DNA of 64,000 nt, taken from positions 1,984,001-2,048,000 of the forward strand of contig NC_016112.1 in assembly GCF_000968535.2 (NCBI RefSeq). The letters run 5' to 3'. The translations under genes were made by a program, and so were the position numbers. Below the pieces are notes generated by a model, which did not search any database, was not told the DNA's origin, and saw only the letters and a list, made by a program, of their open reading frames with translations. Shown piece by piece: positions 12,347 to 53,902 of the stretch (its first letter is position 1; every line of letters starts with the position of its first letter). This stretch comes from Methylotuvimicrobium alcaliphilum 20Z (GTDB taxonomy: Bacteria; Pseudomonadota; Gammaproteobacteria; Methylococcales; Methylomonadaceae).

Positions 12347-13297
12347 TCATTCCTTAGCTTTTTGCATGACCATGGCTACGGCCGCGGCTCGCGTGACAAC
12401 GCCGAGTTTTTCGAAGATATGCTCTAAATGCTTGTTCACGGTGCGTGGGCTACTGCCGAGGATTATGCCGATTTCTTTGTTGGTTTTGCCGCGGGAAATC
12501 CACATCAGTATTTCCGCTTCTCTTAATGTAAGACCCAAGGAGTCTTTCAGCGACTCAAGATTCCAATCTCGTGAGCCTGCGCGTTGTTGCAAAAGCAATA
12601 GGAATTCATGGGAGTCCGCGCTTCGAGAGAGTTTGATCGATAAATTGCCGAGTGTGTGATCTATTTCCGAAGGTAATTCCCGACCTATATGGTTAGCCTG
12701 AATTTGTTCTCGGAGCCATCCCGAAATCGGTTGCGGAGGTAGTACGCCGATTTCTACTTTCCGGCTTGATTCAAGTTTTTCGGTTAATTGGCTCAACAAT
12801 GTTTCCGCGCATGGTGTCAGCCAAGTAATCCGTCCGGACCTATCCACAGTTAAAGCGGCGAACGGGGCATGTTTCAACGCGGTTTTGGCGCGGCTGATTG
12901 TTCTGGCTTGGGTCAGATGAACATCGACTCGTGCCAAAACTTCGGTCGGTTTGATCGGTTTGACAATATAGTCCAGGCCGCCTTCGTCGAAGCCCCTTAA
13001 TAGATTATCCAGCTCGCCCAGTCCGGTCATGAACAAAATAGGAATGTCGGTTGTGGCCGGATTGCTCTTTATTTTTCGACAGGTTTCGAAACCGTCGATT
13101 CCCGGCATGACGACATCGAGCAAAATAATATCGGGGTGCAAAAAACCGATTTGCTCGAGTGCGGAATGCCCGTCGATGGCGACCAACACCCGGTACCCGG
13201 CTTCCGAGAGCGTGTCGGATAAAAACGCCAAATTACCGGGCGTATCGTCGATGATCAATACTGTGCCCTTATTAACGGAATGATTTGCCGCAGTCAT
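12347..13297 (-). CDS. LuxR-type response regulator (module 1)
   Basis: 316 residues. The receiver domain (1-125) shows LIIDDT acidic residues, the phosphorylatable aspartate in LLDVVMPGIDG, and the lysine in IVKPIK. A PAS-like or spacer segment (about 140-235) follows. The C-terminal helix-turn-helix of the LuxR/NarL type (LTLREAEILMWISRGKTNK, then NKHLEHIFEKLGV) should bind DNA. It closely resembles the regulator at 22594-23511. Both are transcribed after a permease-kinase, the likely phosphodonor. Here a 556-bp repeat-filled gap separates regulator and kinase, whereas the second pair overlaps by 4 bp. Target genes are unknown; the urea/amide operons are the obvious candidates. Confidence 0.9.
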   Translation of the reverse strand: MTAANHSVNKGTVLIIDDTPGNLAFLSDTLSEAGYRVLVAIDGHSALEQIGFLHPDIILLDVVMPGIDGFETCRKIKSNPATTDIPILFMTGLGELDNLLRGFDEGGLDYIVKPIKPTEVLARVDVHLTQARTISRAKTALKHAPFAALTVDRSGRITWLTPCAETLLSQLTEKLESSRKVEIGVLPPQPISGWLREQIQANHIGRELPSEIDHTLGNLSIKLSRSADSHEFLLLLQQRAGSRDWNLESLKDSLGLTLREAEILMWISRGKTNKEIGIILGSSPRTVNKHLEHIFEKLGVVTRAAAVAMVMQKAKE

Positions 13298-13853: not shown

Positions 13854-16800
13854 TCAAATCTTATCGATCGAATCGGTCTTCACTAGCGTAATTTCAACAT
13901 CATTACTCGATAACAGCAGTTTTTTGATTTCCCCGATTTTAAATTCGTAGGCCAATTTTTTTATTTTGGCGACGAATAGCGCGTATTCCGAAGCTAAAAG
14001 GTCTAATCGAGTCTTCAATCCAGTTAAATCGCCGATTCGAACGAATCCGGCGAGTTCGTCGATTACTTGTTGCGGGGGGAATACGATCGCATTATTTGCC
14101 GACTGATTCAAAACAAGCGTGTCATCATTCTGGTGAATCCATTCCAGCGAGAGATGCAGTCCAAGTTTGTATAATAATTCGCGAATTTTTACCGGCTTCG
14201 AGAGAAAATCGTTGCAACCGGCGTTGATAGCGGCGACTCGGTCCGTCAAATAGGCGTTAGCACTCAGTACAACGATGGGGTGTTTATAGCCTTTCTCGCG
14301 TAGCACAGTAGCGGTTGCTAAACCGTCGATATCCGGCATCGAAAGATCGAGCAGAATGAGGTCGGGAGGATTGTCCGAAACGATGTCGATACAAACTCCA
14401 CCGGATTCGGCTTCATCCATGACGAAACCGAGGGGTTCCAGAATCGAGACGATTAGATCGCGATGTTCAGCCTGATCGTCGACGACGAGCAAGCGTTTGC
14501 GGCGTCCCGAGTAGCCTTGGACGTCATTATCTCTGACGGCTTCCGGCGTCGCGCCTTGATTCGGTAAAAACAGGCGTACCGTGAATGCAGAGCCCCGACC
14601 GGGTTCGCTCGTAACCGACAGTTCTCCTCCCATGATTTCGGCGAAAATTTTGCTGATCGTAAGCCCGAGTCCGCTGCCTGAAACGGCATTGCCGCTACTG
14701 TCGTGTATCCGTGTGAAGGGTTGGAAGATGTTTTGCAAATGTTTCGGCTCGATGCCTTTGCCGGTGTCGATGACTTGAAAGTTGGCGACCTCGCCGCTGT
14801 AACCGATGCGGAAGATGATACCTCCCGTTTCTGTGAACTTGACGGCGTTACTCAGCAAATTAATCAGAATTTGTCCGACCCGTTTTTCATCGCCGCGAAT
14901 TCGCTGGGGCAGGGAATGGGTGAACTGGCAGCAAAACGATAAACCTTTCGATTCGGCCTGGGGTTTGTAGACCCGCACTAAATGATCGATAAAAGCCGGA
15001 AAATGAAACGGCGCCGATTTAATTTCGAATTTACGCGCCTCGATACTCGCAATATCGAGGATATCTTCGACTAGCGATGACAAATGTTCGCCGCTCCGTT
15101 TTAATGTTTCGACCGCTTGGCGGCGGCGTTCGGGTATTTCCGTGTCTTTATGAAGAATATAAGCGTAACCGATGATGCTATTGAGGGGTGTTCTGATTTC
15201 ATGGCTCATGTTACTCAAAAAACGGCTTTTTGCGCTATTGGCAGCGTCGGCCATTTTTAAGGCTTGGGCTAGTTTCACGTCGGTCTTTTTGTGTTCCTCG
15301 ATTTCCATCAACAATAATTGCGTTTGTTTAGCCGTTTCTTCATGGGCGACGCGGCGGCTCTCATCGTTCAAAATCAGCCACCAGGTACACAAACCGATAA
15401 AAACCAACAACGATGCATAAATCTTGACGAAATTTTCCAGTAGCAGTCGAAAAGCAGGCAAATAAGGTTGGGCGGTCAACAAATCCTGATAATAAATGAT
15501 GCCGATAAAAATACTGGTAAGTACCGTCAGAAACAAAAACAGCAGGCCAAAGCGCTGTAATCGCAAACGAGCCTGTAGCGATAGCGTTTTCGGCAGAAAG
15601 CGCCGGGCCACTATTTCCAAATAATCGTCGAGTCGTGCTCCGGGTTTGCAAGCATCCAGACATCGCGCTTCGAGCGTGCAACACAACGAACAAATACTGC
15701 CTAGATAGGCTGGACAATAGGCGATGTCTTCCTGCTCGAATGTGTTGCCGCAAATGCTGCAGTGTTGATGAGACGCCTTGTTGTTTTCGTCCCGGTCGCG
15801 AGCCAGATAATGTTTAGGCCTGGAAACGACTGCGATGAGAGGAACAAGAATAAAGGCTAGGCCAAGCGAAATAAACGCCGAGAAAGCGCGCGGATAATCG
15901 CCGAAGGCGCCAAGGTAGGCCAGTATCGAAACGATCGACGCGCATAAGGTTGCGATAATGCCGACCGGATTGAGGTCGGGCAGGTAGGCGCGCTTGAATT
16001 CGACGATTTTGGGGCTGAGGCCCAACGGCTTATTGATCATCAATTCGGCGGCAACCGCGCTGATCCAAGCGATCGAGATATTGGAAAACAAACCCAACAC
16101 TTTTTCCAAAGCGCCGAAAACGCCGAACTCCATCAACAATAACGCGATCGAGACATTGAATACTAACCAAACGACGCGTCCGGGATGACTGTGCGTCACT
16201 CGCGAAAAAAAATTCGACCAGGCGAGCGAGCCGGCATAGGCGTTGGTTACGTTGATTTTTATTTGGCAGATGACGACGAACAGCGTCGTGACGGCGAGCG
16301 CAATCGCAGGATTGCCGAACAGATCGTTATAAGCGATCAAATACATTTGCGTCGGTTCGTGTGCGTGCTCCGGTGCGATACCGTTACGCAGTGCGAGATG
16401 TGCGAGCAAAGCCCCGCCTAATTGTCTGAGCATGCCGAATAATACCCAGCCGGGACCGGCGGCAATGGTACCGAACCACCAACGAAAGCGGTTCTGTCGA
16501 GTTTTTTCGGGCATGAAACGCAAAAAGTCGACTTGTTCGCCGATTTGAGCGACCATCGAAAAAGCCACCGTCGCGGCGCTGCCGAACAATAGCCAGTCGA
16601 AATCGCGTCCGCTGCCGGCGATCCAAAAATAGGTTTTGAGTGTCAGTAGCGCTTCGGGTTCGTGCCGGTAAACGGCGATATAAGGCGCGATCAACAAAAT
16701 CAGCCAGATCGGCTGAGTCCATAGTTGCAGCCGGCTGATCGTCGTGATTCCGAATGCGACCAACGGTATTACGATCACCGCGCTGATGACATGGGCCAAT

Positions 16801-17255
16801 GCGATCGGGATTTGAAAATAGAGTTCGAGTGCGAGCGACATGATCGACGCTTCGAGTGCAAAAAGCGTGAAGGTAAACGAGGCATAAATCAACGAGGTAA
16901 CGGTCGAGCCGATATAGCCGAAACCGGCGCTACGAGTCAGTAAATCGATGTCGATGTTATACCGGGCGGCATAATAACTTATGGGAAAACCGGTGATGAA
17001 GATGACTAGGCCAACCACTGAAATAGCCCAGAACGCGTTGGTAAATCCGTAATTGATAGACAGAAAACCGCCGATGGCTTCCAAAACCAGAAACGAAGTC
17101 GATCCGAAGGCCGTATTGGCCACTTGGAACTCGGACCATTTGCGGAAACTACGCGGCGCAAAACGAAGCGCATAATCTTCTAGAGATTCGTTAGCGACCC
17201 AAGCGTTATAGTCGCGGCGAATTTTCGAGATATTCTGATGAATCGGGGCGCTCAT
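13854..17255 (-). CDS. Hybrid histidine kinase with NCS1-type permease sensor (module 1)
   Basis: 1133 residues. About 1-485 form a multi-pass membrane region resembling NCS1 cytosine/purine/allantoin permeases (RSAGFGYIGSTVTSLIYASF; INVTNAYAGSLAWSNFFSR). Residues 499-536 hold a cysteine motif, C-x2-C-x11-C-x7-C-x2-CC-x5-C-x3-C, identical in spacing in the paralogue at 23508-26930. Two further membrane helices (about 567-632) lead through a coiled segment to HisKA (SHEIRTP, His near 685), HATPase (NLLSNAVKF, DTGKGIEP, GSGLGLTISK) and a receiver domain (VVDDQ; phospho-Asp near 970 in LLDLSMPD). The design is that of a transporter-derived sensor ('transceptor'), comparable in idea to CbrA but with a different transporter family. 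The ligand is unknown; a nitrogenous small molecule is inferred. Confidence 0.88.
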   Translation of the reverse strand: MSAPIHQNISKIRRDYNAWVANESLEDYALRFAPRSFRKWSEFQVANTAFGSTSFLVLEAIGGFLSINYGFTNAFWAISVVGLVIFITGFPISYYAARYNIDIDLLTRSAGFGYIGSTVTSLIYASFTFTLFALEASIMSLALELYFQIPIALAHVISAVIVIPLVAFGITTISRLQLWTQPIWLILLIAPYIAVYRHEPEALLTLKTYFWIAGSGRDFDWLLFGSAATVAFSMVAQIGEQVDFLRFMPEKTRQNRFRWWFGTIAAGPGWVLFGMLRQLGGALLAHLALRNGIAPEHAHEPTQMYLIAYNDLFGNPAIALAVTTLFVVICQIKINVTNAYAGSLAWSNFFSRVTHSHPGRVVWLVFNVSIALLLMEFGVFGALEKVLGLFSNISIAWISAVAAELMINKPLGLSPKIVEFKRAYLPDLNPVGIIATLCASIVSILAYLGAFGDYPRAFSAFISLGLAFILVPLIAVVSRPKHYLARDRDENNKASHQHCSICGNTFEQEDIAYCPAYLGSICSLCCTLEARCLDACKPGARLDDYLEIVARRFLPKTLSLQARLRLQRFGLLFLFLTVLTSIFIGIIYYQDLLTAQPYLPAFRLLLENFVKIYASLLVFIGLCTWWLILNDESRRVAHEETAKQTQLLLMEIEEHKKTDVKLAQALKMADAANSAKSRFLSNMSHEIRTPLNSIIGYAYILHKDTEIPERRRQAVETLKRSGEHLSSLVEDILDIASIEARKFEIKSAPFHFPAFIDHLVRVYKPQAESKGLSFCCQFTHSLPQRIRGDEKRVGQILINLLSNAVKFTETGGIIFRIGYSGEVANFQVIDTGKGIEPKHLQNIFQPFTRIHDSSGNAVSGSGLGLTISKIFAEIMGGELSVTSEPGRGSAFTVRLFLPNQGATPEAVRDNDVQGYSGRRKRLLVVDDQAEHRDLIVSILEPLGFVMDEAESGGVCIDIVSDNPPDLILLDLSMPDIDGLATATVLREKGYKHPIVVLSANAYLTDRVAAINAGCNDFLSKPVKIRELLYKLGLHLSLEWIHQNDDTLVLNQSANNAIVFPPQQVIDELAGFVRIGDLTGLKTRLDLLASEYALFVAKIKKLAYEFKIGEIKKLLLSSNDVEITLVKTDSIDKI

Positions 17256-17594
17256 TGATAATCAGGCATGCAGTTTCAGCTTAGACAGCAAGTCATTGAA
17301 TAATGAATAAATTAAGCAATTTATATGCCGTAATTGTCATAAGCTGTTTATAAGTCGCCCGGCACCCGATCGGTGCGCATGTGTCAAATAACGGCGGTGG
17401 CGTGTATTGATATGGTGCGAATGACGAAAAAACGCACATTCTTAGTGCTACGGAAGAGGGCGGTGGGCGGAGTGCGGTTTTTCTATGCCTTGTGCATATC
17501 GAATATCGTGATCATGCGACTCTCCCGAAAGGGAGAGTGCAGGGGTAAACTTTCATAAATCGGAAATTTAACGAGCGAGCGCTATAATTCCGAA
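17256..17594. other. Intergenic region with a short hairpin
   Basis: No gene seen. The only structure noted is a perfect 8-bp hairpin with GAAA loop (ACTCTCCC/GGGAGAGT, 17519-17538), not followed by a T-run on either strand. The promoter of the kinase gene should lie in 17256-17400, but I could not assign boxes. Confidence 0.5.
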
Positions 17595-18362
17595 TTATTT
17601 TCTTTCATGGCCAAGTTTCAAAATAACGGGCGAACCTTGGTTATGGATCGTAATTTGTTTATAGCTTTTCTTTTCGGCGTTAACGTCATTTGTCTCGGAG
17701 GGCACTGGCTTGCCTGGTTCGGTTTGCGTTTCCGGCTCTTCAACGGTTTCGATCAAAACATCCGGTGCCCAGCTCGGACTGGTGGCTTGAAGCGCATCTG
17801 CACGTTCTTCCGGTTGAACTTTGAGCGATTTCAGCAAATTCAGGCAAACGGTGCTCACTTGGTCGATCAATCGCGAGCGTTTTTCGCCCCCTGATAGCGG
17901 TTTAGCGATAAATTCCATCGTATAGTCCGCCGACTCGGTGCTGTTCGCGGTCGAGATTAGCGAGCAGGTGATCGGCACGATTTCCGCTTTTTGAAAGTTT
18001 ACCGCTCGCGGGTCGGAATTTCCGGCAGTAAATGAAAAGCCGGTTGGGGTGCTACCGTGCTTGACGGCTTCGATCGTTGCCTGCATCCGATGGCCGGCGG
18101 GTTTATCGGCATCGCTGCCGATGGTATAACCCCACTCGTTTAAATGGCTTGCAATTGTTTCGGCCATTTCATGATTCGCCGTGTCATCGGCTTGATAGCC
18201 GGCCGCTTCGATATCGATTTCGAAAAAGATTTGCTTTACCGAAGCGGCATCGATCGGCACTCGTTTCATATCCGGGCCTATCGTGCATCCGATTAAGGTT
18301 GTCGAGATAACCGAAAGAGCGATGAAAACGCTTGATTTTAGGTGATGCAACGGTTCGATCAT
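17595..18362 (-). CDS. Putative lipoprotein
   Basis: A 255-residue protein from the ATG at 18362, preferred because it starts the signal sequence (MIEPLHHLKSSVFIALSV, then TLIGCTI with the lipobox cysteine near 26). The mature part is soluble, with a segment VKQIFFEIDIEAAGYQADDT and a low-complexity acidic tail rich in E, T and P. I recognise no domain. Likely attached to the periplasmic face of a membrane. It stands between repeats and the permease-kinase, with no clear operon partner. Confidence 0.7.
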   Translation of the reverse strand: MIEPLHHLKSSVFIALSVISTTLIGCTIGPDMKRVPIDAASVKQIFFEIDIEAAGYQADDTANHEMAETIASHLNEWGYTIGSDADKPAGHRMQATIEAVKHGSTPTGFSFTAGNSDPRAVNFQKAEIVPITCSLISTANSTESADYTMEFIAKPLSGGEKRSRLIDQVSTVCLNLLKSLKVQPEERADALQATSPSWAPDVLIETVEEPETQTEPGKPVPSETNDVNAEKKSYKQITIHNQGSPVILKLGHERK

Positions 18363-18561
18363 GGCTATCCTGTGATTGATAAAAATAAATTCTACTTCTT
18401 TTCGCATTTCAAATTTTGGCGTAATCGCTCCCACTCGCTTAGGGACGGTTCAAGGGAGAGGGAAGCCAAAAACGAAAATGGGTGCGATCACTGAAAAATA
18501 AGCAACAGCGATGCCAAATTAAATTCGATCGCTTGATTACCGATTTGTTTATCAGCGATTT

Positions 18562-18722
18562 TATACCTTTCACACTTCAAATTTCGGCAGTGCCCGAGGA
18601 GGCGCCGGGGCGTCCGACAAAGGCTTTGCCAGCATGGAGCTGGCATAGAGCCTACATGGACGTATTCACGGCGTCCTTTGGCGGACACCCCAGTGCCGAA
18701 TTATGATCTACGATGGGTATAG
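18562..18722 (+). repeat. Dispersed palindromic repeat, family R1 (copy 2)
   Basis: Runs from TATACCTTTCACACTTCAAA to GATCTACGATGGGTATAG and contains GCCAGCATGGAGCTGGC and the CATGGACGTATTCACGGCG core. It lies just upstream of the lipoprotein gene in the same interval as 18363-19054, which otherwise holds no gene. Confidence 0.9.
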
Positions 18723-19054
18723 TATCGAATCATTCGGCATATCGACACGCAAAAAGTATGCTTTCGTTACGGTTTTGGCCGGTACACTGTGGACGTGTTT
18801 AATAAAGTCTGAAGCACTTTAGAATGTCTACCGGTTTTTCGGTATACGTCATTTACCCGATAGGCCAAATAAAACGAAAAGGAAACGAAAAGGGGTCAGG
18901 TTACTTTTTTTGATTGATGGCGGCCAATAAGAGTAGTACCCCGGTCTCTTTTTTCAGATTGATGTCATGATTATGATCATGTGAAAAAACTTTCCGACTA
19001 ATTTCAATCCGCAACTAAAATGGTTGTTTTCGAATTGTCGCGGCCAAATTAAAC

Positions 19055-19972
19055 ATGAAAAAGCAATCGTTTACTTTTGAACAAATTCATATTGAAGTCG
19101 CACGAAATGCTTCCGACGACTTCAACCTGTTTCACGACAAACACAAATGGTTGCAGATTACTCATAACCCATTCAAAGGCCCCATCGTGCTGGGTTTTCA
19201 GTTGAATACGCTGATCGAATACCAGATGCGCCTGTACCGCGAGGCTCAGCATGAGGAGCAGATCATAGTTGATAAGCAATTGCGATTTAGCAATTACCAG
19301 ATTACTTTCGTCAATGCCTTACGGCCGAGCCAGGAATTTTCTCTGGAAATTAAAAAAACCTTGATCAACACGATTCCCGATTTGACGTTGACTAACCGAG
19401 TCGTTATTAAGTCGCAAGGCAAAACGATTTTGCTCGGCTATAAAAAAGAAACCCAAGCTCCGCTGTTTCTTGCAAATACTGATTTAAACGGCTTGCCGGA
19501 TCTGAATACGGTTGCAGATAAAACTCTGGTTCCGGGCAGCGATTACTTTTTAATGCGAAAATGGATGCATAACGGCAATGTCAAAAATTTTTTGTCGGGT
19601 TCTTTGGCCGAGCAATCCGATTATTTTGACGAACTAGCCGAAGTTGCCCATTATCCTGAAATATTCCCTTGTAGCTTAACTTCCGGAGTCTTACTGGAAA
19701 AGGCTCAACTTGAGAATCACGATTTCAAGGCTAATCCAATGGTTTATACCTCGCATGAGTTATCTATCGACCGTCATTGGGTCGGGCAACTGAAAAACAA
19801 CGATAAAGTTTACATATTGGTCAAACAACTGCCGGAGTCCAAGGATAATACACTCAATAACACTAGAATCTTGTTGCGTTCTTACGAATGTTACGGGGTG
19901 CTGGAAAATAAAGAGATTCTATTTAGAATCAAACTAAATTTGGTGCCGTTGGAGGAAATCTTAAAAATTTGA
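19055..19972 (+). CDS. MaoC/hot-dog-like protein of unknown function
   Basis: 305 residues, ATG start, no signal peptide. Residues 17-50 (ASDDFNLFHDKHKW, then NPFKGPIVLGFQLNTLIE) resemble the hydratase motif of MaoC-like hot-dog domains, in which an Asp/His pair acts on enoyl thioesters. The rest may be a second, degenerate hot-dog unit. An acyl-thioester dehydratase or binding role is possible but unproven. The gene is isolated between two R1-containing regions. Confidence 0.65.
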   Translation: MKKQSFTFEQIHIEVARNASDDFNLFHDKHKWLQITHNPFKGPIVLGFQLNTLIEYQMRLYREAQHEEQIIVDKQLRFSNYQITFVNALRPSQEFSLEIKKTLINTIPDLTLTNRVVIKSQGKTILLGYKKETQAPLFLANTDLNGLPDLNTVADKTLVPGSDYFLMRKWMHNGNVKNFLSGSLAEQSDYFDELAEVAHYPEIFPCSLTSGVLLEKAQLENHDFKANPMVYTSHELSIDRHWVGQLKNNDKVYILVKQLPESKDNTLNNTRILLRSYECYGVLENKEILFRIKLNLVPLEEILKI

Positions 19973-20010
19973 AATTGAAAAGTTAACGGGGGAGTCGGTA
20001 GTAATCCTTA

Positions 20011-20168
20011 ATATGCCTTTCGCACTTCAAATTTCGGCAGCGTCTAAGGAGGCTCCGGGGGCTCGACAAAGGTTTTGCCAGCATGGAGCCGGCATAGAGC
20101 CTATATGGACGTATTCACGGCGTCCTTTGACGGACACCCCGGCGCCGAATTTTGATCTACGATGAGTA
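20011..20168 (+). repeat. Dispersed palindromic repeat, family R1 (copy 3)
   Basis: From ATGCCTTTCGCACTTCAAA to TTTTGATCTACGATGAGTA, with the same core and arms as the other R1 copies. It occupies most of the gap 19973-20258. Confidence 0.9.
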
Positions 20169-20258
20169 AATAGTATTAATTGTTAAGTTAAGTTCGAGTT
20201 AACATAAACAATCGAGAATCCGAACTTCTGTAAATTTACGAAGGTTTAATGAAATCCA

Positions 20259-21113
20259 GTGTCAGGAAAAAAACGTTTGTGGTTGTTATTGCCGTTGTTA
20301 CTGTTGTCCGGATGGATTGCATGGCATTTTCCTGATTACTCGCCTTTAAAAAGCGGAATAGAAACGGAGTGGGATCTGAGTCGTTATCAACCGATTGAGC
20401 CTGCTCGCCATGTCGACGGCATCCAAGAAAATCTCTCGGGCATCACCTATCATCCGCCATCGGGTCTGCTTTATGCGGTGACCAATAGACCCTGTAAGGT
20501 TCATGTTCTCAATAAAAATGGCGAGTTGCAGCGGACAATTGATTTACCCGGTTTTCGGGATACCGAGTCCATAACCTACCTGTATGATAACTTTTTTGTG
20601 ATTGCCGAAGAAAATCTCTACAACCTGATGCGGGTGGAAATCACTGAAGCTACGGAATCGATAACGCACGATCAGGCAGTCAGGTTTAATCTGGCAGAAG
20701 AAGATGATGACAATAACGGTATCGAAGGCGTAGCGTGGTCGCAACAATTTGGCTTATTTGCAGTGAATGAAACGCCTCCTACCCTTTTGCATCAGCCAGT
20801 TGACGAATGGGGTATGGGGGTAGATTTGTCAGGATTATTGTCTATGCGACTGAAGGTAAGGGATTATGCCGGATTGAGCGTATTACCGGGGAAGGAAGAC
20901 AAGTTATTGATATTGAGTGAATCCTCCGACAGTCTGCATGTCGTCGACATGCAGGGGCGGGAATTATCGCGGCTCAGTTTACGCGCAGGAAAATTAGGAT
21001 TGATTGGCTGGTTATGGCAACCGGAAGGTGTGGCCGTTGATAATGACGGCCGAATTTATGTAGTCGGAGAGCCGAATCAATTTCTGGTTCTGGAGCGGCG
21101 TCCGGATCGATAG
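20259..21113 (+). CDS. SdiA-regulated-like beta-propeller protein
   Basis: 284 residues beginning with a GTG codon; the ATG 10 bp upstream is in another frame and soon closes. An N-terminal hydrophobic segment (LWLLLPLLLLSGWIAW) anchors or exports it. The body (ENLSGITYHPPSGLLYAVT, FRDTESITYL, NNGIEGVAW, PEGVAVDNDGRIYVVGEP) has the repeated blades of the SdiA-regulated (YjiK-like) family, whose biochemical role is unknown. Confidence 0.8.
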   Translation: MSGKKRLWLLLPLLLLSGWIAWHFPDYSPLKSGIETEWDLSRYQPIEPARHVDGIQENLSGITYHPPSGLLYAVTNRPCKVHVLNKNGELQRTIDLPGFRDTESITYLYDNFFVIAEENLYNLMRVEITEATESITHDQAVRFNLAEEDDDNNGIEGVAWSQQFGLFAVNETPPTLLHQPVDEWGMGVDLSGLLSMRLKVRDYAGLSVLPGKEDKLLILSESSDSLHVVDMQGRELSRLSLRAGKLGLIGWLWQPEGVAVDNDGRIYVVGEPNQFLVLERRPDR

Positions 21114-21131
21114 GCTTCGCAGAAAATCGCC

Positions 21132-21495
21132 TTAGGAATATGCACAAAATAACTTATACAAGTAGTAGGCTTTGTGGCGGTTTGGTCAGCAATTCCCAAT
21201 TTGGAGATCAAAAAGGGTGTGGGGTATGCTTGGCGAGGATGTCGGCAGCAGGGAGCTGCCGCCAAGCCCCCATGGATGGGTCTACGGCGTTCCTCGACAG
21301 GCATACCCCGCACCCTAAAATCGGCGAAACTGCTCAAACTGGGAATTGCTGCGGTTTGGTGACTCGCTTGACAGGACGCCGTGAATACGTCCGTGTAGGC
21401 TTGACGGCGGCTTATCCCTGCCGCCGACACCTGTCAATCGAGCCACCAAACCCCCTTCCAACAGTTGTCTAAGTTATTTCATGCTCGTTCCTTAA
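21132..21495. repeat. Dispersed repeat R4 interrupted by a 165-bp miniature element
   Basis: Begins GGAATATGCACAAAATAAC and ends CATGCTCGTTCCTTAAC, matching the R4 copy at about 12006-12309. It is interrupted at CGGTTTGGT by the R2 element. No protein-coding gene is supported between 21114 and 21736. Confidence 0.8.
21187..21351 (+). mobile_element. 165-bp miniature inverted-repeat element R2 (copy 1)
   Basis: Exactly 165 bp with inverted ends CAGCAATTCCCAATTTG / CAAACTGGGAATTGCTG. It is flanked by the 9-bp direct repeat CGGTTTGGT (21178-21186 and 21352-21360). It does not encode a transposase, so it would need one in trans. The interior has the same CATGGATGGGTCTACGGCG-type core as the other repeat families. 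Confidence 0.9.
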
Positions 21496-21633
21496 CAAGT
21501 ATTGGAGAACATTCGGCGTGGGCGATAAAAAATAGGCAGGGCGCTATGTGCCCGCTCGTTGGAAGGGTTGCGCAAAAATAAGCTCACCTACTTACCTGTC
21601 GAAGTCTGCGAATTAGTCTTGAAAAGTAACCTG

Positions 21634-21692
21634 ACCCCTTTTCGCTTTTCGGTCGGAAAAGTAACCTGACCCCTTTTCGTGACCCCTTTTCT
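21634..21692. repeat. Short direct repeats GAAAAGTAACCTGACCCCTT
   Basis: Two copies, 21634-21656 and 21657-21679 approximately, plus a third partial one. An inverted copy (AAAAGGGGTCAGGTTAC) lies at about 18890. They lie just upstream of the cheB-like gene. Such sequences often mark edges of REP-associated transposase units, but none is seen here. Confidence 0.6.
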
Positions 21693-21736
21693 TCTTGGTA
21701 TAGGATGGTTGTTTGTCGACAATTAAAGAGGTACTC

Positions 21737-22396
21737 ATGATACACGATAGATACGGAGCCGTTAATGAATCAGAAACTTCAGGGGTAGCAAACGGCAACA
21801 GAGTAAACGAAGCGGTTTCCTTGGAGAACGATTTTCCTGTCGTTTGTGTGGGCGGTTCGGCGGGCGGGCTCGACGCTTATATTAGGTTGTTGCAAAATCT
21901 GCCGGCAAACCTAGGCGTAGCTATCGTCATTGTTAATCACATCACAAAAATGCCGACCATGCTGCATGAAGTTCTGCCGACTTATACCACCATGCCTGTT
22001 GAGCTAATCACGGAAAGTCTGCAAATGAAACCTAACCGCGTGTTTATCATTCCAGCCAATCGGGATTTACACGTCACCGATGGACAGTTTCATTTAAAGC
22101 CAATATCGAAGCCTCATGGTTGGCCCGATGTCATCACGGTATTTCTACGCTCATTGACGGAGCATTGGGACGGTAAGCTGATTGCTGTGATTGTCTCTGG
22201 CTATGATGGTGACGGAGCTGACGCGCTTTGCGGCATCAAAGAAGTCGGCGGCATCACCATTGCTCAAAAGCTTGATACCGCTATTCAGCCAGACATGCCG
22301 GAGACAGCAATTGCGAGTGGCTGCATCGATTTTGTTCTGTCACCGGAAAATATCGCTCAAAAACTTGTGCGCATTGCTAGAAATGAGGTGTTGTGA
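21737..22396 (+). CDS. Stand-alone CheB-type methylesterase
   Basis: About 219 residues from the ATG at 21737, which has AGAGG 7 nt upstream; an in-frame TTG 8 codons earlier is less likely. The CheB methylesterase catalytic domain shows the serine in VGGSAGGLDA, the histidine in VNHITK and the aspartate in SGYDGDGADAL. There is no N-terminal receiver domain, and no chemotaxis gene is nearby. Such orphan domains occur in CheB/CheR-linked signalling proteins. Its neighbour on the opposite strand is the second response regulator, ending about 200 bp away and converging on it. Confidence 0.85.
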   Translation: MIHDRYGAVNESETSGVANGNRVNEAVSLENDFPVVCVGGSAGGLDAYIRLLQNLPANLGVAIVIVNHITKMPTMLHEVLPTYTTMPVELITESLQMKPNRVFIIPANRDLHVTDGQFHLKPISKPHGWPDVITVFLRSLTEHWDGKLIAVIVSGYDGDGADALCGIKEVGGITIAQKLDTAIQPDMPETAIASGCIDFVLSPENIAQKLVRIARNEVL

Positions 22397-22593
22397 CAGC
22401 CGGTAAGTCATTGCCAATTTCGGATCTTCGATCAATCTGATGCTGCCTCATTCCTGATTGTACCGACAGTGTTACTTTCCAAATCTGGGGCCAAGCCTTA
22501 CATTTAGCATTATCTTTACCCCCCTATCTTTTTGCTTGCCTGTAGTACGCAATTTAATTTTTGGGAGGCGATAGCAAAATGTATAAACCGGCA

Positions 22594-23511
22594 TCACGAT
22601 TTCAGATATTTCAATGCCATCACTGCGGCGCTGGTGCGGTTTTCCACGTTCATTTTTTTAAACACTTGCTCTAGATGTTTGTTGACGGTGCGAGGGCTCA
22701 TTTCGAGGATTGATCCAATCTCGCGGTTGGTTTTACCTTTGGCTATCCAAAGCAGTACTTCGGATTCGCGCTCTGTTAAAAAAAGGTTGGCTCGTAATAT
22801 TTCCTCTTCAGTTGCGCGTTCCGAATCAACGATTCGTATCAGATGTTCTTTGTTACCGGTTTGACCGATATATTTCATTTCAAGAGATTTTGTTTCCAGG
22901 TTTACCGTTTGCCCTTTTTCTCTGTTGTATTGAGGCGATAGCATGAGTCTGAGCGGTTTTATCAACGATTCATCGAGCTGTTCGGTATTCAAGCCGGAGT
23001 CCGAGAATAATTGAACGGCTTGTGGAGTGGCCCAAAGCAAGCGGCCGTTAGAATCGATCGAAAATAAATATTGTCCTGCCGAATCCAATGCGGCGCGGGC
23101 GCTTTTTGTTAATCTGGCATTTGCCAAATGAACCCGCATTCTTGCGATGAGTTCCTCTCCTTTTACCGGTTTCGTGACGTAATCGACTCCGCCGGCTTCC
23201 AATCCTTTAACGATGCTTTCAGAATCCGACAAACCGGTCATGAAAACAACGGGAATATCGGCCGAATTGCGATGTTGTTTAAGTTTTTTGCAGGTCTCGA
23301 AGCCGTCCATGTTGGGCATAAGCGCGTCCAACAAGATAATGTCGGGATTGATATTGTTTAGGATTGTTAGTGCTTGCGAACCTTCCAGTGCAACTAAGAC
23401 GGCAAATCCCGCTCTATCCAATGTGTCGTTGAGCATGCTCAGCGTGTCCGGCGAATCGTCGACGACCAGCACGACATCTTTTTTCAATTCTAACGGGCGT
23501 GTCGGATTCAT
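22594..23511 (-). CDS. LuxR-type response regulator (module 2)
   Basis: 305 residues, paralogous to 12347-13297. The receiver has VVDDSPDT, phospho-Asp in LLDALMPNMDG and VTKPVKGEE. A PAS-like middle (SAGQYLFSIDSNGRLLWATP) precedes a LuxR helix-turn-helix (LTERESEVLLWIAKGKTNR, then NKHLEQVFKKMNV). Its ATG overlaps the TGA of the kinase by 4 bp (ATGA), so the two are translated together and are very probably cognate partners. The DNA targets are unknown; the adjacent divergent amide/urea transporter is the first candidate. Confidence 0.92.
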   Translation of the reverse strand: MNPTRPLELKKDVVLVVDDSPDTLSMLNDTLDRAGFAVLVALEGSQALTILNNINPDIILLDALMPNMDGFETCKKLKQHRNSADIPVVFMTGLSDSESIVKGLEAGGVDYVTKPVKGEELIARMRVHLANARLTKSARAALDSAGQYLFSIDSNGRLLWATPQAVQLFSDSGLNTEQLDESLIKPLRLMLSPQYNREKGQTVNLETKSLEMKYIGQTGNKEHLIRIVDSERATEEEILRANLFLTERESEVLLWIAKGKTNREIGSILEMSPRTVNKHLEQVFKKMNVENRTSAAVMALKYLKS

Positions 23512-26500
23512 AGCATTTCTTCAAGGCAAGTAACGAGTTCATCGAATCGGTAGTTTTTAACAAGGCTTGTAAGGCGATCGGCATGTTGCTTGTTTAGTTT
23601 TCGATCTTCTTCTAAGCCTTTCAAGAAACTGAGTAATTCGTTCATATAGCCGATTTTAGCGAGCTGGATCATCGTTTCTCGATCCGATCGATCGAGCATT
23701 CGGTAGGGTAGCAACGTTATTTCGGACTTACTTTCGATTTTACTAGGTGAAGCGCTTTCACTCGCTAAGAGAGGGGGTATTTTCCCTTCATCGGAAAAAG
23801 AGTCGCCGGTGCTGTAGACCCAACGAATCGGCAAATATTTTTGGATCAGATCCATCATATCGGTCAATTTTATCGGTTTGACGAGATAAGCATCGTAGGG
23901 TAGATGTTCCGCGAATATCGAATTCGGTTGATGGGCATTAGCGGAAACCATGATTACGGTTGCCGATGGAATTTGGCTTCGAATGCGACCGGCCAATTCC
24001 CAACCGCTCATGCCGGGCATGGCTATATCCAATAAAAAAAGTTGGGGCTTTTTTTTGCAATATTGCAACATATCCAGGCAAGTAAAGCCGTCTTGAGCTT
24101 GAAACACGTTGAATCCCAGAGGAGACAGCATGTCAACTAACAAGCCGCGATGACTGGGATCGTCGTCGACGATGAAAATCGTCTGCTCGATGCCTTGATA
24201 GCCGCTGGGTATGGCGGCAGGTAGGCTGTGCGGTGCTTTTATGGCGTTGACACTGGAAAGCATTAAAGAAACTTTGAAAAGACTGCCTTGATTGGGACTG
24301 CTTTTTATGGTGATTTCTCCGCCTAGTATATCGGTCAAGAAGCGCGTAATCGTCAGGCCAAGGCCTGTGCCGGAAATGTAAGGCGCTCCGGCTTTTCGAA
24401 TTCTTTCGAAAGGTTGAAAGATTTTTTCAATATTTTCCGGTTCGATGCCTTCACCGGTGTCCTTGATCGAAAAGACGGCGACTTGGTTGCGATAGGATAC
24501 TGAAAAATATACTTCGCCCTGATGCGTATATTTAACGGCGTTCGAAATCAAATTGATCAATATTTGGCGTAAGCGTTTTTCATCGGTTCGAATGGTTTTC
24601 GGTAAAGGTGTCAACTGTTCGTGCACGAATTGAATACCTTTGGCTGTAGACTGAACCTTAAACATATTCACGATTTGATCGAGCATCGCGATAAAATCGA
24701 CATCGTTCTTAGAAAGTTGCAGTCGGCCGGCTTCTATTCTGGAAATATCCAATAGACCTTCGATAATATCCGCCAGATGTTCGCTGCTGCGTCGAATGAC
24801 CGACAAAGCGTCTCTCCGGTTGCCGGGAATGGCTTTATCTTTCTCCAGTAGTTGAGCATAGCCGAGTATCGCATTGAGCGGAGACCTCAATTCGTGGCTA
24901 ATACCGGTTAGATAACGGCTCTTTGCTTGATTCGCGGCTTCCGCTACCTCTTTCGCTTGTTGCAGCTTAAGATCGGTCATTTGATGGGCCTCGATTTCAG
25001 CAATCAACAGATCGGTTTGATTGCGGGATTCCTCCAGCGCCAGTTTTCTGCTTTCATGAAGTAGAGAGAACATCCACGATACGACGCCTGAAATAATCAA
25101 CAAGATGAAGAAAATATTGATTAGGGCATTGGTGATCACGGCTTTATCGATAGTTTCGTCCGACGTAATCTGGAAATAAATCAGCGCAAGCAAGGAGGAC
25201 ATCAAAATGCCGGTAAGTACAAACAAGCCGAAAAAGTTTCCTAGCCTTGCCGTGACGATTCCGCTCCAAGCGTCCGGCATGATTTTGTTCAATGCCGAGG
25301 AAATTTGATCCGCCATGCCGGCATTGGTTTTACACATATCGTGACACCGGCTGTCGAGCGAGCAGCATAGCGAGCAGATCGCTCCGGCATAGGCCGGACA
25401 GAGCGACATGTCTTCGGGCTCGAAGTGATGTTCGCAAATACAACAAACCTGGTCGGGATTTTTGCCGGCATTCTCCGGATCCCTGGCGATGTAATAACGT
25501 CCATTCGTCAACCAAGCAATCAAGGGCGTACAAAAAAAAGTAAGGGCTAATGTGAGATAAGGCGACATAGCTTGAAAGTTAATACCGAACAAGCCGCTAT
25601 AAGCGATCAAACCAATCAAAGAGGCGGTCAGCATAGAACCGATACCGACCGGGTTGATATCGTATAAATGAGCCCTTTTGAACTCCATTTTTCGGGGTCT
25701 TAGGCCAAGAGGGAGATTGATAGTCAAATCGGCTACCAATGAACCGACCCAAGCAATAGCGATGATTGCAAACAAGCCAAGGATTTCTTTAAGTGCATGG
25801 TAAATTCCTAGTTCCATCAGCATCAGTGCGATGACGACATTGAAAACCAACCAAACCACGCGTCCGGGATGATTTTGAGTCGTTCTGGAAAAAAAATTAG
25901 ACCATGCGATGGACCCGGCATAGGCGTTCGTCACATTGATTTTCAGTTGCGAGAATATGACAAATATGCCGGTCAATAATAACGGCAGTTCCGGGGATGA
26001 GGTCAAATAGCCGAATGCGGTCAGATACATGTGATTCGGGTCAGATGCTTGCTCAAAGCCGATGCCGTGCTCGATAGCCAAAACGGCAAGAAACGAGCCG
26101 ATGAGGATTTTAGCCATTCCGGGGAAAATCCAGCCGGGGCCGCCGGAAATCAAAGCGGCCCACCAGGTAAGCTTGTTCTGATTGTTTTTTTCGGGCAGAA
26201 ATCTGAGAAAGTCGACTTGTTCGCCGACTTGAGCAATCAAGGAAAACGCAACGACGGATGCAGCGCCGAAAGCCGTTATATCAAAGCCTTCTGTCGCCGT
26301 TATCGGCTTATACCCTGTCCAGAGAGCCATCGCATCGTCCGATTTAAGAGCGATACAGACCAGAGGAATGATTTGAAGCGCGATCCAAAGCGGGTGAGTC
26401 CATACTTGAAATCGGCTGATTAGCGTAATGCCATGCGTGACTAGAGGGATAACGACCAAAGAGCTAATAAGATAACCGATAGATAATGGGATATTTAGCG

Positions 26501-26930
26501 TGAGCTCCAGCGCCATTGAGAGAATGGTGGCTTCCAGTGCAAAAAAAATGAAAGTGAACGACGCATAAATCAATGAAGTGACCGTGGATCCGATATAGCC
26601 GAATCCCGCTCCGCGGGTTAGAAGATCGATGTCCGTGCCCAGTTTGGCGGCGTGATAGCTGATCGGTAAACCGGTTAAAAAAATGATCGCACCGACGGTT
26701 AAAACGGCCGAAACCGCATTGACGAATCCGTAGGTCAAGGTCAAGGTGCCGCCGATCGCTTCGAGCGCGAGAAACGAGATTCCACCCAGCGCAGTCAACG
26801 ATACTTGCCATTCGGACCATTTCCTGGATTTTTTAGCGGTAAAGCGGAGCGCATAATCTTCGAGCGTTTGATTGGCGACCCACCGGTTGTAATTGCGCCG
26901 TACTCGAAAGATTTTTTGTTGGCCGTTCAT
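23508..26930 (-). CDS. Hybrid histidine kinase with NCS1-type permease sensor (module 2)
   Basis: 1140 residues, same order of parts as the kinase at 13854-17255: NCS1-like permease (GAGFGYIGSTVTSLIYASF; KINVTNAYAGSIAWSNFFSR), the eight-cysteine motif (CCICEHH...CPAYAGAICSLCC...CHDMC), two extra helices, HisKA with SHELRSP, HATPase (LINLISNAVKYT; DTGEGIEP; GTGLGLTITR), and a receiver with LLDIAMPGMSG. The N-terminal TLEDYALRF segment is also shared. A conserved membrane transporter core with both kinase and receiver suggests a phosphorelay sensor of a transported nitrogen compound. The gene is divergent from the amide/urea transporter operon. Its start codon lies only 12 bp from a miniature element. 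Confidence 0.9.
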   Translation of the reverse strand: MNGQQKIFRVRRNYNRWVANQTLEDYALRFTAKKSRKWSEWQVSLTALGGISFLALEAIGGTLTLTYGFVNAVSAVLTVGAIIFLTGLPISYHAAKLGTDIDLLTRGAGFGYIGSTVTSLIYASFTFIFFALEATILSMALELTLNIPLSIGYLISSLVVIPLVTHGITLISRFQVWTHPLWIALQIIPLVCIALKSDDAMALWTGYKPITATEGFDITAFGAASVVAFSLIAQVGEQVDFLRFLPEKNNQNKLTWWAALISGGPGWIFPGMAKILIGSFLAVLAIEHGIGFEQASDPNHMYLTAFGYLTSSPELPLLLTGIFVIFSQLKINVTNAYAGSIAWSNFFSRTTQNHPGRVVWLVFNVVIALMLMELGIYHALKEILGLFAIIAIAWVGSLVADLTINLPLGLRPRKMEFKRAHLYDINPVGIGSMLTASLIGLIAYSGLFGINFQAMSPYLTLALTFFCTPLIAWLTNGRYYIARDPENAGKNPDQVCCICEHHFEPEDMSLCPAYAGAICSLCCSLDSRCHDMCKTNAGMADQISSALNKIMPDAWSGIVTARLGNFFGLFVLTGILMSSLLALIYFQITSDETIDKAVITNALINIFFILLIISGVVSWMFSLLHESRKLALEESRNQTDLLIAEIEAHQMTDLKLQQAKEVAEAANQAKSRYLTGISHELRSPLNAILGYAQLLEKDKAIPGNRRDALSVIRRSSEHLADIIEGLLDISRIEAGRLQLSKNDVDFIAMLDQIVNMFKVQSTAKGIQFVHEQLTPLPKTIRTDEKRLRQILINLISNAVKYTHQGEVYFSVSYRNQVAVFSIKDTGEGIEPENIEKIFQPFERIRKAGAPYISGTGLGLTITRFLTDILGGEITIKSSPNQGSLFKVSLMLSSVNAIKAPHSLPAAIPSGYQGIEQTIFIVDDDPSHRGLLVDMLSPLGFNVFQAQDGFTCLDMLQYCKKKPQLFLLDIAMPGMSGWELAGRIRSQIPSATVIMVSANAHQPNSIFAEHLPYDAYLVKPIKLTDMMDLIQKYLPIRWVYSTGDSFSDEGKIPPLLASESASPSKIESKSEITLLPYRMLDRSDRETMIQLAKIGYMNELLSFLKGLEEDRKLNKQHADRLTSLVKNYRFDELVTCLEEML

Positions 26931-27374: not shown

Positions 27375-27390
27375 TACGTCAAATGACGTA
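27375..27390. promoter_or_regulatory. Candidate operator palindrome upstream of amide/urea transporter 1
   Basis: TACGTCA-AA-TGACGTA, a 7-bp inverted repeat with 2-bp spacer. Its core GTCAAATGAC is the exact reverse complement of GTCATTTGAC at 41990-41999, upstream of the second uptake operon. It ends 92 bp before the ATG of the substrate-binding protein gene. It could be bound by the adjacent LuxR-type regulators, which use short inverted sites, or by another factor. Confidence 0.55.
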
Positions 27391-27481
27391 ACGCGGGTGA
27401 GCATCCGCCTAATGGTTAAACGAAGCGCTTTGCCGGACACTGTCAGCGAACCAAACAAAATTTAATTTGGAGAGCTTAAAC

Positions 27482-28762
27482 ATGTGTATCTTTAATTATG
27501 AAAGTGGGAGCCGGGACAATTCTCCGGTATTCAAGCGCCGGAGTTTTATTAAAACATTGATCGCTTTTCCGCTGGGTCTGATCTTGGCATCTTCCACCCT
27601 TAGTTGGGCCAACCCCCCGACAAGTGAGGTCAATACGACAGGATTGGCAGTGACCGACGATACGGTTACGGTCGGTATTTTGCACTCTGTTACCGGTACG
27701 ATGGCTATTAGCGAAACCGGATCGGTGCAAGCGGAAAAGCTTGCGATCGATCAGATAAACGCCATGGGTGGCGTGCTCGGCCGTAAGATCGAATACATTC
27801 AAGAGGACGGTGCCAGCGATTGGCCGACCTTCGCCGAAAAATCGAAAAAATTATTGGTCAACGATAAGGTCGCCGCCGTTTTCGGGTGTTGGACTTCGGC
27901 CTCGCGCAAGGCCGTTCTGCCTGTTTTCGAGCAATATAACGGCATGCTGTACTATCCGACTTTCTATGAAGGGCTCGAACAATCTCCGAATGTAATCTAT
28001 ACCGGCCAGGAAGCGACGCAACAAATCATCGCCGGTATCGATTGGGTGGTCAAGGAAAAAGGCGCAAAAACTTTTTACTTGCTGGGTTCGGATTATATCT
28101 GGCCCCGTACCTCCAATAAAATTGCTAGAAAACATATCGAAAAACTGGGATTAAAAGTTGTAGGCGAAGAATATTATCCGTTAGGGCACGCGCAGTTCAA
28201 TTCGGTGATCAACAAAATCAAGTTGAAAAAGCCGGATGTGATCTATGCCATCGTGGTTGGCGGTTCCAATGTTGCCTTCTATAAGCAGCTCAAGGCGGCC
28301 GGTATCGACTTGACTAAAGAAAAGCCGCTTCTATTGACGATTTCGGTGACCGAAGACGAAATTCTGGGTATCGGCGGTGAAAATATCGAAGGGGCTTATG
28401 CCGCGATGAAATATTTTCAAAGCCTCGACAATCCGAACAATCAAGCGTTCGTGCAAGCATTCAAAGACAAATGGGGTAAAGATATCGTGATAGGCGACGT
28501 TACCCAAGCAGCCTACTTGGGTCCCTGGTTATGGAAAGCTGCCGTCGAAAAAGCCGGTTCGTTCGATATCGATAAAATCCGTGCCGCATCGCCGGGTATC
28601 GAGTTGACGACCGCACCGGAAGGCTATGTTCGCATTCATGAAAATCATCACTTGTGGTCCAAGACTCGAGTCGGTTTAGCGCAAAAAGACGGTCAATATA
28701 AAGTCGTTTATGAAAGCGAGGAATTGATCGAACCGAACCCTTTCCCGGTAGGTTATCAATAA
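27482..28762 (+). CDS. Amide/urea ABC transporter substrate-binding protein
   Basis: 426 residues from the ATG at 27482, which has GGAGAG 7-12 nt upstream; a TTG five codons earlier is within that site. FKRRSFIKTLIAFPLGLIL is a twin-arginine-type export signal. The mature part (VTVGILHSVTGTMAISETGS, VAAVFGCWTSASRKAVLP, GSDYIWPRTSNKI) is the type I periplasmic binding fold of UrtA/FmdD proteins, which bind urea and short-chain amides. It heads an operon with two permeases, two ATPases and formamidase, so formamide, acetamide and urea are likely cargo. Confidence 0.92.
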   Translation: MCIFNYESGSRDNSPVFKRRSFIKTLIAFPLGLILASSTLSWANPPTSEVNTTGLAVTDDTVTVGILHSVTGTMAISETGSVQAEKLAIDQINAMGGVLGRKIEYIQEDGASDWPTFAEKSKKLLVNDKVAAVFGCWTSASRKAVLPVFEQYNGMLYYPTFYEGLEQSPNVIYTGQEATQQIIAGIDWVVKEKGAKTFYLLGSDYIWPRTSNKIARKHIEKLGLKVVGEEYYPLGHAQFNSVINKIKLKKPDVIYAIVVGGSNVAFYKQLKAAGIDLTKEKPLLLTISVTEDEILGIGGENIEGAYAAMKYFQSLDNPNNQAFVQAFKDKWGKDIVIGDVTQAAYLGPWLWKAAVEKAGSFDIDKIRAASPGIELTTAPEGYVRIHENHHLWSKTRVGLAQKDGQYKVVYESEELIEPNPFPVGYQ

Positions 28763-29796: not shown

Positions 29797-29809
29797 GGGG
29801 GAGTTTCCT

Positions 29810-33991: not shown

Positions 33992-34384
33992 ATGCCGCTC
34001 TATGACTATAAATGCCCGAAACACGGCATTTTCCACGACTTAGCAACGTTCGAAGAAAGCAGCGCTCCACAGGCTTGTCCGCACTGCCAAACCTCGAGTC
34101 CGCGGATTATCATGATACCGCCCGAGGTGCTTGCAATGGCGCCGGACAAGCGTAAAGCAATGAGTATCAACGAACAATCGCGTCACGAACCGGTTTTCTC
34201 GACCGCAGACAGCCGGGAGGATCAAATCCTCGAACACAAGCACACCAAGAATTGCGGTTGCAATACAAACAAAGGTTTGCTTCTGAAGCATCCCGATCTC
34301 AGCAGTTTGAGGCAGCAAGTGGTGTTTATGCAAGACGGAAGTAAAGTCTTTCCATCGCAAAGGCCCTGGATGATCAGCCATTAA
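33992..34384 (+). CDS. fmdB: FmdB-type zinc-ribbon protein
   Basis: 130 residues with a good ribosome site. MPLYDYKCPKHG, then QACPHCQT, form the four-cysteine zinc ribbon of the FmdB (putative regulatory protein) family, named for the gene next to formamidase in Methylophilus. The tail is variable and includes a further pair of cysteines in NCGCNTNKG. It was proposed to regulate formamidase synthesis, but its mechanism is unsettled. Confidence 0.88.
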   Translation: MPLYDYKCPKHGIFHDLATFEESSAPQACPHCQTSSPRIIMIPPEVLAMAPDKRKAMSINEQSRHEPVFSTADSREDQILEHKHTKNCGCNTNKGLLLKHPDLSSLRQQVVFMQDGSKVFPSQRPWMISH

Positions 34385-41999: not shown

Positions 42000-42099
42000 T
42001 GATTGTTCAAATGATTCCGTCAAAGAATAATCGACAACAGCCTTATTCGGCTGCGCCGGTATAAACCGGTGCATTTTTTGACTCTTTGGGGGAATGATC

Positions 42100-53021: not shown

Positions 53022-53025
53022 ACCG

Positions 53026-53874: not shown

Positions 53875-53902
53875 ATACAAAATCCGATATCAAGGATAAA
53901 TT

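Follow-up and report, generated by a model that had tools for sequence, protein, structure and literature searches.

The stretch of DNA analysed here (the window) comprises 64,000 nucleotides of the gammaproteobacterium Methylotuvimicrobium alcaliphilum 20Z (contig NC_016112.1, positions 1,984,001 to 2,048,000) and carries two genes, named HK1 and HK2, whose products join a predicted NCS1-type membrane domain, an eight-cysteine module, a histidine kinase and a receiver in a single chain. Both open reading frames (ORFs) are complete, with the lengths and coordinates that an earlier note on this DNA had claimed, and the two proteins have their parts in common order and share 486 of 1045 positions in BLASTP (47%) over nearly the whole chain, being thus paralogues. 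In Pfam, HK1 and HK2 alike contain HisKA, HATPase_c and one REC domain above the cut-offs and, with their catalytic residues preserved, they are hybrid sensor histidine kinases; among 121 family members, a redundant set that includes the window pair, H679 was kept in 117, N793 in 118, D968 in 118 and K1018 in 117. The first 660 residues of either protein receive no Pfam name, and no Hpt domain for a four-step relay was found in either by Pfam at 0.01. A search with the N-terminal half gave two matches in this strain's own genome, and the nearest public genome among the matches listed is Methylomicrobium sp. wino1 (best segment 97%).

One REC-LuxR regulator follows each kinase. Both regulators, RR1 and RR2, are of the NarL/FixJ type, with REC and a C-terminal GerE (LuxR) domain above the Pfam cut-offs, and with 40% identity they are paralogous as well, just as had been claimed. 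The RR2 ORF overlaps the HK2 stop by 4 bases, while RR1 falls outside the coordinates that the earlier note gave for its finding (13854-26930). Divergently from HK2 runs the operon urtABCDE-fmdA-fmdB, with UrtABCDE and FmdA above the curated cut-offs of their models, so that the amide/urea uptake operon expected beside the second pair is indeed there; the putative positive regulator of the fmdCABDEF cluster of Methylophilus methylotrophus, discussed below, is likewise an FmdB. Farther along, a porin-like gene heads a second urt operon, linked to urease genes (Table 1). The halves of its interrupted urtA match TIGR03407 at positions 1-188 and 196-361, and its UrtB (46429-48120) has a long N-terminal extension, the UrtB match beginning at residue 273 and a HEAT-like match staying below cut-off. 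In the urease block, the ORF at 56656-57330 had no model match at 1e-60, and we take it to be UreF. The Lpp protein upstream of HK1 has no Pfam or NCBIfam match.

Table 1. Coordinates of the genes and sites of the two systems in the window (positions in the window unless residues are given).
Feature	Position	Strand	Remarks
RR1	12347..13297	-	REC and LuxR (GerE), Pfam above cut-off; presumed HK1 partner
HK1	13854..17255	-	1133 residues; NCS1-type membrane domain, eight-cysteine module, two transmembrane helices, HisKA, HATPase_c, REC
Lpp	17595..18434	-	our label, from lipobox-like start; upstream of HK1, same direction
Possible operator relic TACGTCATTTACCCGA	18845..18860	+	upstream of Lpp-HK1-RR1; 4 mismatches, weak
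RR2	22594..23511	-	REC and LuxR (GerE), Pfam above cut-off; presumed HK2 partner
HK2	23508..26930	-	1140 residues; membrane domain ~1-480, eight-cysteine module 496-533, helices from 561
HK2 kinase part	residues 669-735 (HisKA), 782-890 (HATPase_c), 918-1029 (REC)		then C-terminal helices; Pfam and model
Palindrome TACGTCAAATGACGTA	27375..27390	+	proposed RR2 operator; between HK2 and urtA, 76 bases to urtA start
urtA (fmd-linked)	27467..28762	+	urea/amide ATP-binding cassette (ABC) binding protein; TIGR03407 559 bits, cut-off 492.75
urtB	28870..29796	+	TIGR03409 397.2 bits, cut-off 250.3
urtC	29774..31093	+	TIGR03408 455.3 bits, cut-off 296.2
urtD	31044..31832	+	TIGR03411 381.7 bits, cut-off 304.1
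urtE	31857..32546	+	TIGR03410 329.9 bits, cut-off 285.8
fmdA	32582..33811	+	formamidase; NF045496 781.2 bits, cut-off 500
fmdB-type gene	33992..34384	+	zinc-ribbon protein (RPWMISH); NF053663 129.1 bits (cut-off 120), TIGR02605 41.9 (31.3)
Tandem operator-like element TACGTCATTTAACTAA-TGAGTCATTTGACTGA	41971..42002	+	upstream of porin-urt-ure
Porin-like gene	42094..43335	+	first gene of urease-linked urt operon; ExtI porin 65.9 bits, below cut-off 150
urtA (urease-linked)	43360..45939	+	two ORFs around ISL3-type transposase ORF
Transposase ORF inside urtA	44082-45026	-	ISL3-type, DDE_Tnp_ISL3
urtB, urtC, urtD, urtE (urease-linked)	46429..50829	+	TIGR03409, 03408, 03411, 03410 above cut-off
Urease block	52254..58055	+	HupE/UreJ, UreD, UreC, UreG and other genes; HupE_UreJ and UreD matches, TIGR01792 and TIGR00101 above cut-off

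The membrane half and the eight-cysteine module

The earlier note had read the N-terminal half as an NCS1 permease and offered a domain search as the check, of which the HisKA and REC parts came out positive and the PF02133 part did not: searched directly, PF02133 matched none of 45 diverse N-terminal halves at E ≤ 1, and neither HK1 nor HK2 at 0.01, and therefore a plain domain search taken alone would have spoken against the NCS1 claim. A profile search of the PDB with the 45 halves also gave no match at E ≤ 1. With PF02133 itself silent, four other lines of evidence agree on the NCS1 identity. First, the NCBIfam cytosine permease model NF008241, for which no cut-off is given, matches 16 of the 45 halves at E ≤ 1, the best at 4.4e-7. 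Second, hhalign aligned the 45 halves to eight NCS1 proteins, collected via PF02133, with 97.1% probability over 400 columns, against 4.8% and 84 columns for a control of eight SLC5 proteins, and the SLC5 membrane domain (PF00474) had no Pfam match in the halves. Third, a stand-alone permease of 497 residues, L229, bridges the family and NCS1, since PF02133 recognises it at 36.4 bits (cut-off 23.5) and the family profile does so at 2.8e-42. Fourth, the AlphaFold model of HK2 residues 1-640, a prediction built on 29 sequences (predicted local distance difference test score 79.6, predicted template modelling score 0.80), shows a 12-helix core with a broken transmembrane helix 1 and is closest to CodB and Mhp1, which take PDB ranks 1-5 in Foldseek with template modelling scores by target of 0.66-0.78, at only 16-19% identity. 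The further Foldseek matches were other transporters, of what we take to be the LeuT-fold kind. This half was modelled alone because the best 50 Foldseek matches listed for the full-length model were all kinase entries. From these comparisons and the model, we take the N-terminal half to be a divergent branch of NCS1, related to it by remote homology.

In the 397 evenly sampled genomes (described below), the only family match without a kinase is the bridging permease L229 (9249-12465), from one genome; its genus has more copies, and the gene beside it contains two stretches of carbon-nitrogen hydrolase.

The eight-cysteine module was also found as described in the earlier note. In HK2, it consists of C496, C499, C511, C519, C522, C523, C529 and C533, and the same eight cysteines stand in the same order in HK1; all eight columns are at least 97% conserved among the 121 family members and invariant in a 49-row alignment. 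In the model, the module forms a small hairpin and short helices after the 12-helix core, and two long helices (561-588 and 596-639) run from it into the kinase. A profile of the module gave 72 matches in the 397 genomes at E ≤ 0.001, every one in an open frame of at least 894 residues, and genome by genome the module is matched as often as the family, except in G319, whose stand-alone permease is without the module. Among the scored candidates, at most 18 per genome in the 397 genomes, no eight-cysteine module was found outside the family, and it thus looks like a hallmark of the family. It probably binds a metal. A PDB profile search with the module returned 15 weak matches (best E 0.012), mostly zinc fingers that aligned over the first CxxC only, and these were not read as a sign of homology.

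Conserved gene neighbourhoods and a candidate operator

The co-occurrence of the homologues with nitrogen-compound genes, which the earlier note had set as a check, was first visible in the 80 nearest loci of GTDB, where urtA was found upstream and divergent in 72 by script, and in 75 after reading three over-long ORFs listed as UrtA in the right place (L038, L043 and L084), with fmdA in 67 and a regulator next door in 78 (both by script). As for the remaining urtA misses, L042, L065 and L079 start at a contig end, L018 has none, and in L083 the urt and urease genes lie on the opposite side. Since close relatives of HK2 are over-represented among these loci, an even sample of the phylum was drawn, namely 397 genomes at least 90% complete, in which the searches scored 3 (family), 4 (UrtA) or up to 18 (cysteine module) candidates per genome, so that family counts are lower bounds. 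The family occurs in 65 of these genomes with 73 matches, two of them in the own genome. Around the matches outside the own genome, 71 regions of up to 20 kb were taken, and 68 were testable after leaving out L229 (no kinase) and L171 and L228 (contig edges).

In 66 of the 68, urt, fmdA or ureC lies in the region: urt with fmdA in 38, urt in 10, urt with ureC in 6, ureC in 7, fmdA in 2, and urtA alone, 6.5-7 kb upstream, in 3. In the two exceptions, urtA is found about 10 kb past the kinase on its contig, just beyond the region (L190), or about 61 kb away (L213). Where the region holds urtA, the gene is upstream and divergent in 52 of 55. At the level of whole genomes, UrtA (E ≤ 1e-60) was found in 64 of 65 kinase-bearing genomes vs. 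129 of 332 others (Fisher p = 1e-21), and in the Methylococcales in 69 of 73 vs. 28 of 78 (p = 4e-15). Because the sampled relatives nearly always adjoin genes for the uptake and breakdown of these compounds, the family probably consists of sensors for urea and small-amide nitrogen sources.

Two observations go beyond the earlier note: HK1 also has a presumed urea operon, and an operator-like palindrome is common to both systems. The first comes from 40 Methylococcales regions drawn around family members, where HK1-type kinases often stand with RR1 and Lpp and divergent from the porin gene, behind which come urt genes of another type, with a UrtA about 40% identical to the fmd-linked one. The protein cluster of Lpp occurs in 27 of 41 sets (the 40 regions and the window) and is a frequent companion of HK1 there; porin homologues precede urtA, and porin and/or urease-type urtA occur in 22 of the 40. 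L125 has urt and ure genes, fmd-type urtA is found in L136, L142, L143 and L156, and L119 is a same-genus copy of the window arrangement, cut at its edge. Judged by these orthologues, the presumed partner of HK1 is porin-urtABCDE-ure, and by the same comparison, the window seems to hold two systems, one inserted into the other, with the HK2 block between HK1-Lpp and porin-urt-ure.

The palindrome came from counting dyads upstream of 44 non-redundant kinases, which yielded a single one, TACGTCAWWTGACGTA, and we propose it as the operator of the partner regulators. A dimeric regulator of the NarL type would be expected to bind an inverted repeat of this kind, whose halves are seven bases long, and a core site common to both systems would fit, since RR1 and RR2 are paralogous and similar. 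The copy at 27375-27390 is the only perfect one in the 4.8 Mb genome, where 0.0045 would be expected under uniform bases, and the next best has two mismatches. A tandem form, typically ATACGTCAWWTGACTGATgAGTCA..., stands in the porin promoters of Methylococcales and is also present in the window; the long tandem pattern has a single genomic match, at 41971-42002, and its score is descriptive, the pattern having been drawn from the same 22 sequences that it scores. The relic at 18845 resembles parts of this porin-promoter operator.

Upstream of 118 kinases (a redundant set), 24 regions differ from the palindrome at one position or not at all, and every shuffle differs at four or more; of the 55 operon promoters (of urtA or the porin gene) in the even sample, 31 come within two mismatches of it vs. 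0 of 55 shuffles. Our shuffles permute two-base blocks and are thus a crude null. From the 129 kinase-free genomes with UrtA, 20 urtA promoters were selected, 18 of them from the window's class; none has two or fewer mismatches, the best having five. Over the whole genome, 37 places have at most three mismatches vs. 47 for the reversed control, which is chance level, and therefore no wider regulon is claimed. A scan of the window gave 2 matches vs. 0.75 expected, a number reached by 19 of 100 shuffles, so the weight of the palindrome lies in its position, perfection and conservation and not in this count. A sigma-70 scan of 26800-27600 gave two sites, both on the minus strand, vs. 1.4 in shuffles, and no promoter is claimed there.

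A proposed signal path and the readings that compete with it

We consider it fairly probable that HK1 and HK2 are members of a group, widespread in Proteobacteria, of transporter-derived sensors of urea or short-chain amides that induce the corresponding uptake and hydrolase operons. In such a mechanism, the 12-helix domain of NCS1 type, with its CodB/Mhp1 fold, would bind urea or a short-chain amide (formamide, acetamide), and possibly transport it too; the conformational change would pass through the cytoplasmic eight-cysteine module, probably with its metal, and then through the two helices and a coiled coil before it reaches the HisKA/HATPase core. H679 would pass its phosphoryl group on to the LuxR-type regulator that is its partner, the REC domain within the kinase chain would serve as a brake or sink, and the regulator would bind TACGTCA-N2-TGACGTA upstream of urtA or the porin gene, thereby switching on high-affinity uptake together with the matching hydrolase. 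HK2 and RR2 would act in this way on urtABCDE-fmdAB, and HK1 and RR1 on porin-urtABCDE-ure.

Several points weigh against this scheme. Gene linkage alone would suit urea, amides and ammonium alike as the ligand, and the silence of PF02133 on the membrane half has been described above. Of the 40 Methylococcales regions, 12 (seven of HK1 type and five of a deep subclade, L137-L141) have no urt, fmdA, porin or ure gene, with a urtA match 10-18 kb away in three of the seven (L120, L130 and L158), and 4 of 73 kinase-bearing Methylococcales genomes have no UrtA match. In the window itself, HK1 lies about 25 kb from porin-urt-ure (42094-58055), with the HK2/urt-fmd block between them, and the urtA of that operon is interrupted. 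As for the palindrome, 72 of the 118 kinase-upstream regions have at least five mismatches, as shuffles do, partly because Lpp intervenes in HK1-type loci; 18 of the 55 linked promoters also have at least five and are no better than shuffles (eight from f63 and five from f53), and the control promoters come mostly from the window's own class. Finally, in the deep subclade, the membrane half is joined to GGDEF-EAL outputs in L137, L138 and L139 (in L139 with EAL over two ORFs).

Among the alternatives, the one that survives best, and which we nevertheless find rather doubtful, is that the membrane domain is an active transporter first and would set the kinase activity through its flux, in the double role of a transceptor that CbrA has for histidine. 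The predicted CodB/Mhp1 fold with its broken transmembrane helix 1 and complete 12-helix core agrees with this, as does the N-x-x-N-x-Y motif of transmembrane helix 8, read by eye, that the family has in common with the stand-alone L229. Nevertheless, the same membrane half is fused to varied outputs, which suggests a sensor, and transport by the membrane domain would be redundant because a high-affinity ABC uptake system is encoded next door; the invariance, in 121 of 121 members, of the charged residues E57, E133, E237, D240, R243 and K330 in the membrane half may also speak against this reading.

We regard as unlikely the proposal that the permease-kinase senses nitrogen status, through ammonium or another general cue, with the urt, ure and fmd genes merely as targets. 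A single family serving both amide-type and urease-type operons, with about six switches between them in a quick tree, would suit such a cue; however, the operon type follows the kinase tree with 6 changes vs. 19-31 in 300 label shuffles (79 labelled rows, window HK1 being labelled ure by our own reading), and this fits substrate-specific sensing. NCS1 relatives transport uncharged nitrogenous solutes, and L229 adjoins its carbon-nitrogen hydrolase gene, both of which also argue against a general cue. In its favour, the amide/urea cluster fmdCABDEF of M. methylotrophus, besides being substrate-induced, is repressed by ammonia as well, according to the passage cited (PMC10781810). Lastly, it is highly improbable that the linkage reflects co-transfer of a cassette instead of regulation, since, even if the HK2 block looks inserted and may therefore move as a unit, the divergent layout is kept in nearly all regions with urtA, and the palindrome occurs with both types of operon and in none of the 20 urtA promoters examined from genomes that lack the kinase.

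Output swapping and known transporter-derived sensors

A quick tree of 90 N-terminal halves, in which several forks stay open and several branches are long, places HK1 and HK2 in different clades, both supported. Besides the GGDEF-EAL proteins, the deep Methylococcales subclade includes a HisKA-HATPase-REC-Hpt protein (L140) and one with PAS and HATPase_c (L141). In L222 (6949-10756) and L226 (6901-10847), whose regions include fmdA, the NCS1 kinase is non-hybrid. Varied outputs behind one constant membrane half are what would be expected of a sensor. We are evenly divided over a wider proposal, in which the NCS1 domain, the eight-cysteine module and the two helices would together form a new portable membrane input module, like MASE or SLC5-STAC, with urea or a short-chain amide as its ancestral signal; on hybrid kinases it would control a conserved regulon via one palindrome across Alpha- and Gammaproteobacteria, on GGDEF-EAL proteins (with PAS/GAF in some) it would feed cyclic-di-GMP, and the eight-cysteine module would add a metal or redox input. 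The family ORF of L137 lies at 6227-10846, and in both L222 and L226 the gene after the kinase has about 420 codons, that of L222 encoding REC, a weak HisKA and HATPase_c and not a LuxR regulator.

By analogy, the family may work like CbrA, RpuS and Ks-Amt5, that is, as a sensor built from a transporter, and it is large and was not found named in the literature surveyed. In the SLC5-STAC kinases (CbrA, CrbS and RpuS), a transporter domain is fused to a histidine kinase that regulates the use of the carried compound, and the passages cited describe some of them as hybrid, with a LuxR-type regulator adjoining (PMC13022988, PMC9100948). HK1 and HK2 share this plan, but their membrane domain is of NCS1 and not SLC5 type according to the hhalign comparison, the eight-cysteine module and two extra helices stand where STAC/PAS would be, and the linked genes concern urea and amides instead of histidine, acetate or pyruvate use; lacking the SLC5 feature, the family is not a member of SLC5-STAC. 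The ammonium sensor kinase Ks-Amt5 likewise reuses a nutrient transporter as the sensor of a histidine kinase, in its case an Amt domain directly fused to a kinase of DHp and CA parts, as described in the passage cited (PMC5764959), in contrast to the NCS1 domain, cysteine module, two extra helices, REC domain and large family (65 of 397 genomes) found here. With CodB and Mhp1, HK2 1-640 shares the predicted fold, while differing in the attached kinase, the low identity and the missing PF02133 match.

For fmdCABDEF, the passage cited names no sensor kinase and only a putative positive regulator (PMC10781810), whereas a kinase-regulator pair is attached to the fmd genes here. The urea genes of Ectopseudomonas include a hybrid histidine kinase and a LuxR-family regulator, with the membrane domain unnamed in the passage cited (PMC13296017). 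Identity with MxaY/MxaB, the lanthanide switch of a related methanotroph, was considered and set aside on its description: the paper on that pair nowhere uses the word "transmembrane", and the passages cited mention no transporter domain. GrtK, an ammonia sensor, was set aside as a counterpart, judged by its description. An NCS1-histidine kinase was unnamed in the titles and abstract openings among the matches listed, a scope that excludes subscription papers and most preprints.

Few transporter-fused sensor kinases have been characterised, none of them based on NCS1 in the literature surveyed, and a common family with a defined neighbourhood and a candidate operator is therefore well suited to testing how a transporter fold turns into a receptor. 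The family is also a candidate for the missing sensor behind the substrate induction of urea and formamide use, with relevance to nitrogen cycling and to biotechnology with formamide or urea as the nitrogen source.

Between the two systems of the window, the stretch 19055-22396 encodes a protein of 305 residues without a family match, an SdiA-regulated family protein and a CheB-methylesterase-only protein. Among the 40 Methylococcales regions, these three genes are found together only in L119, from the same genus, and the 305-residue protein is also present in L009.

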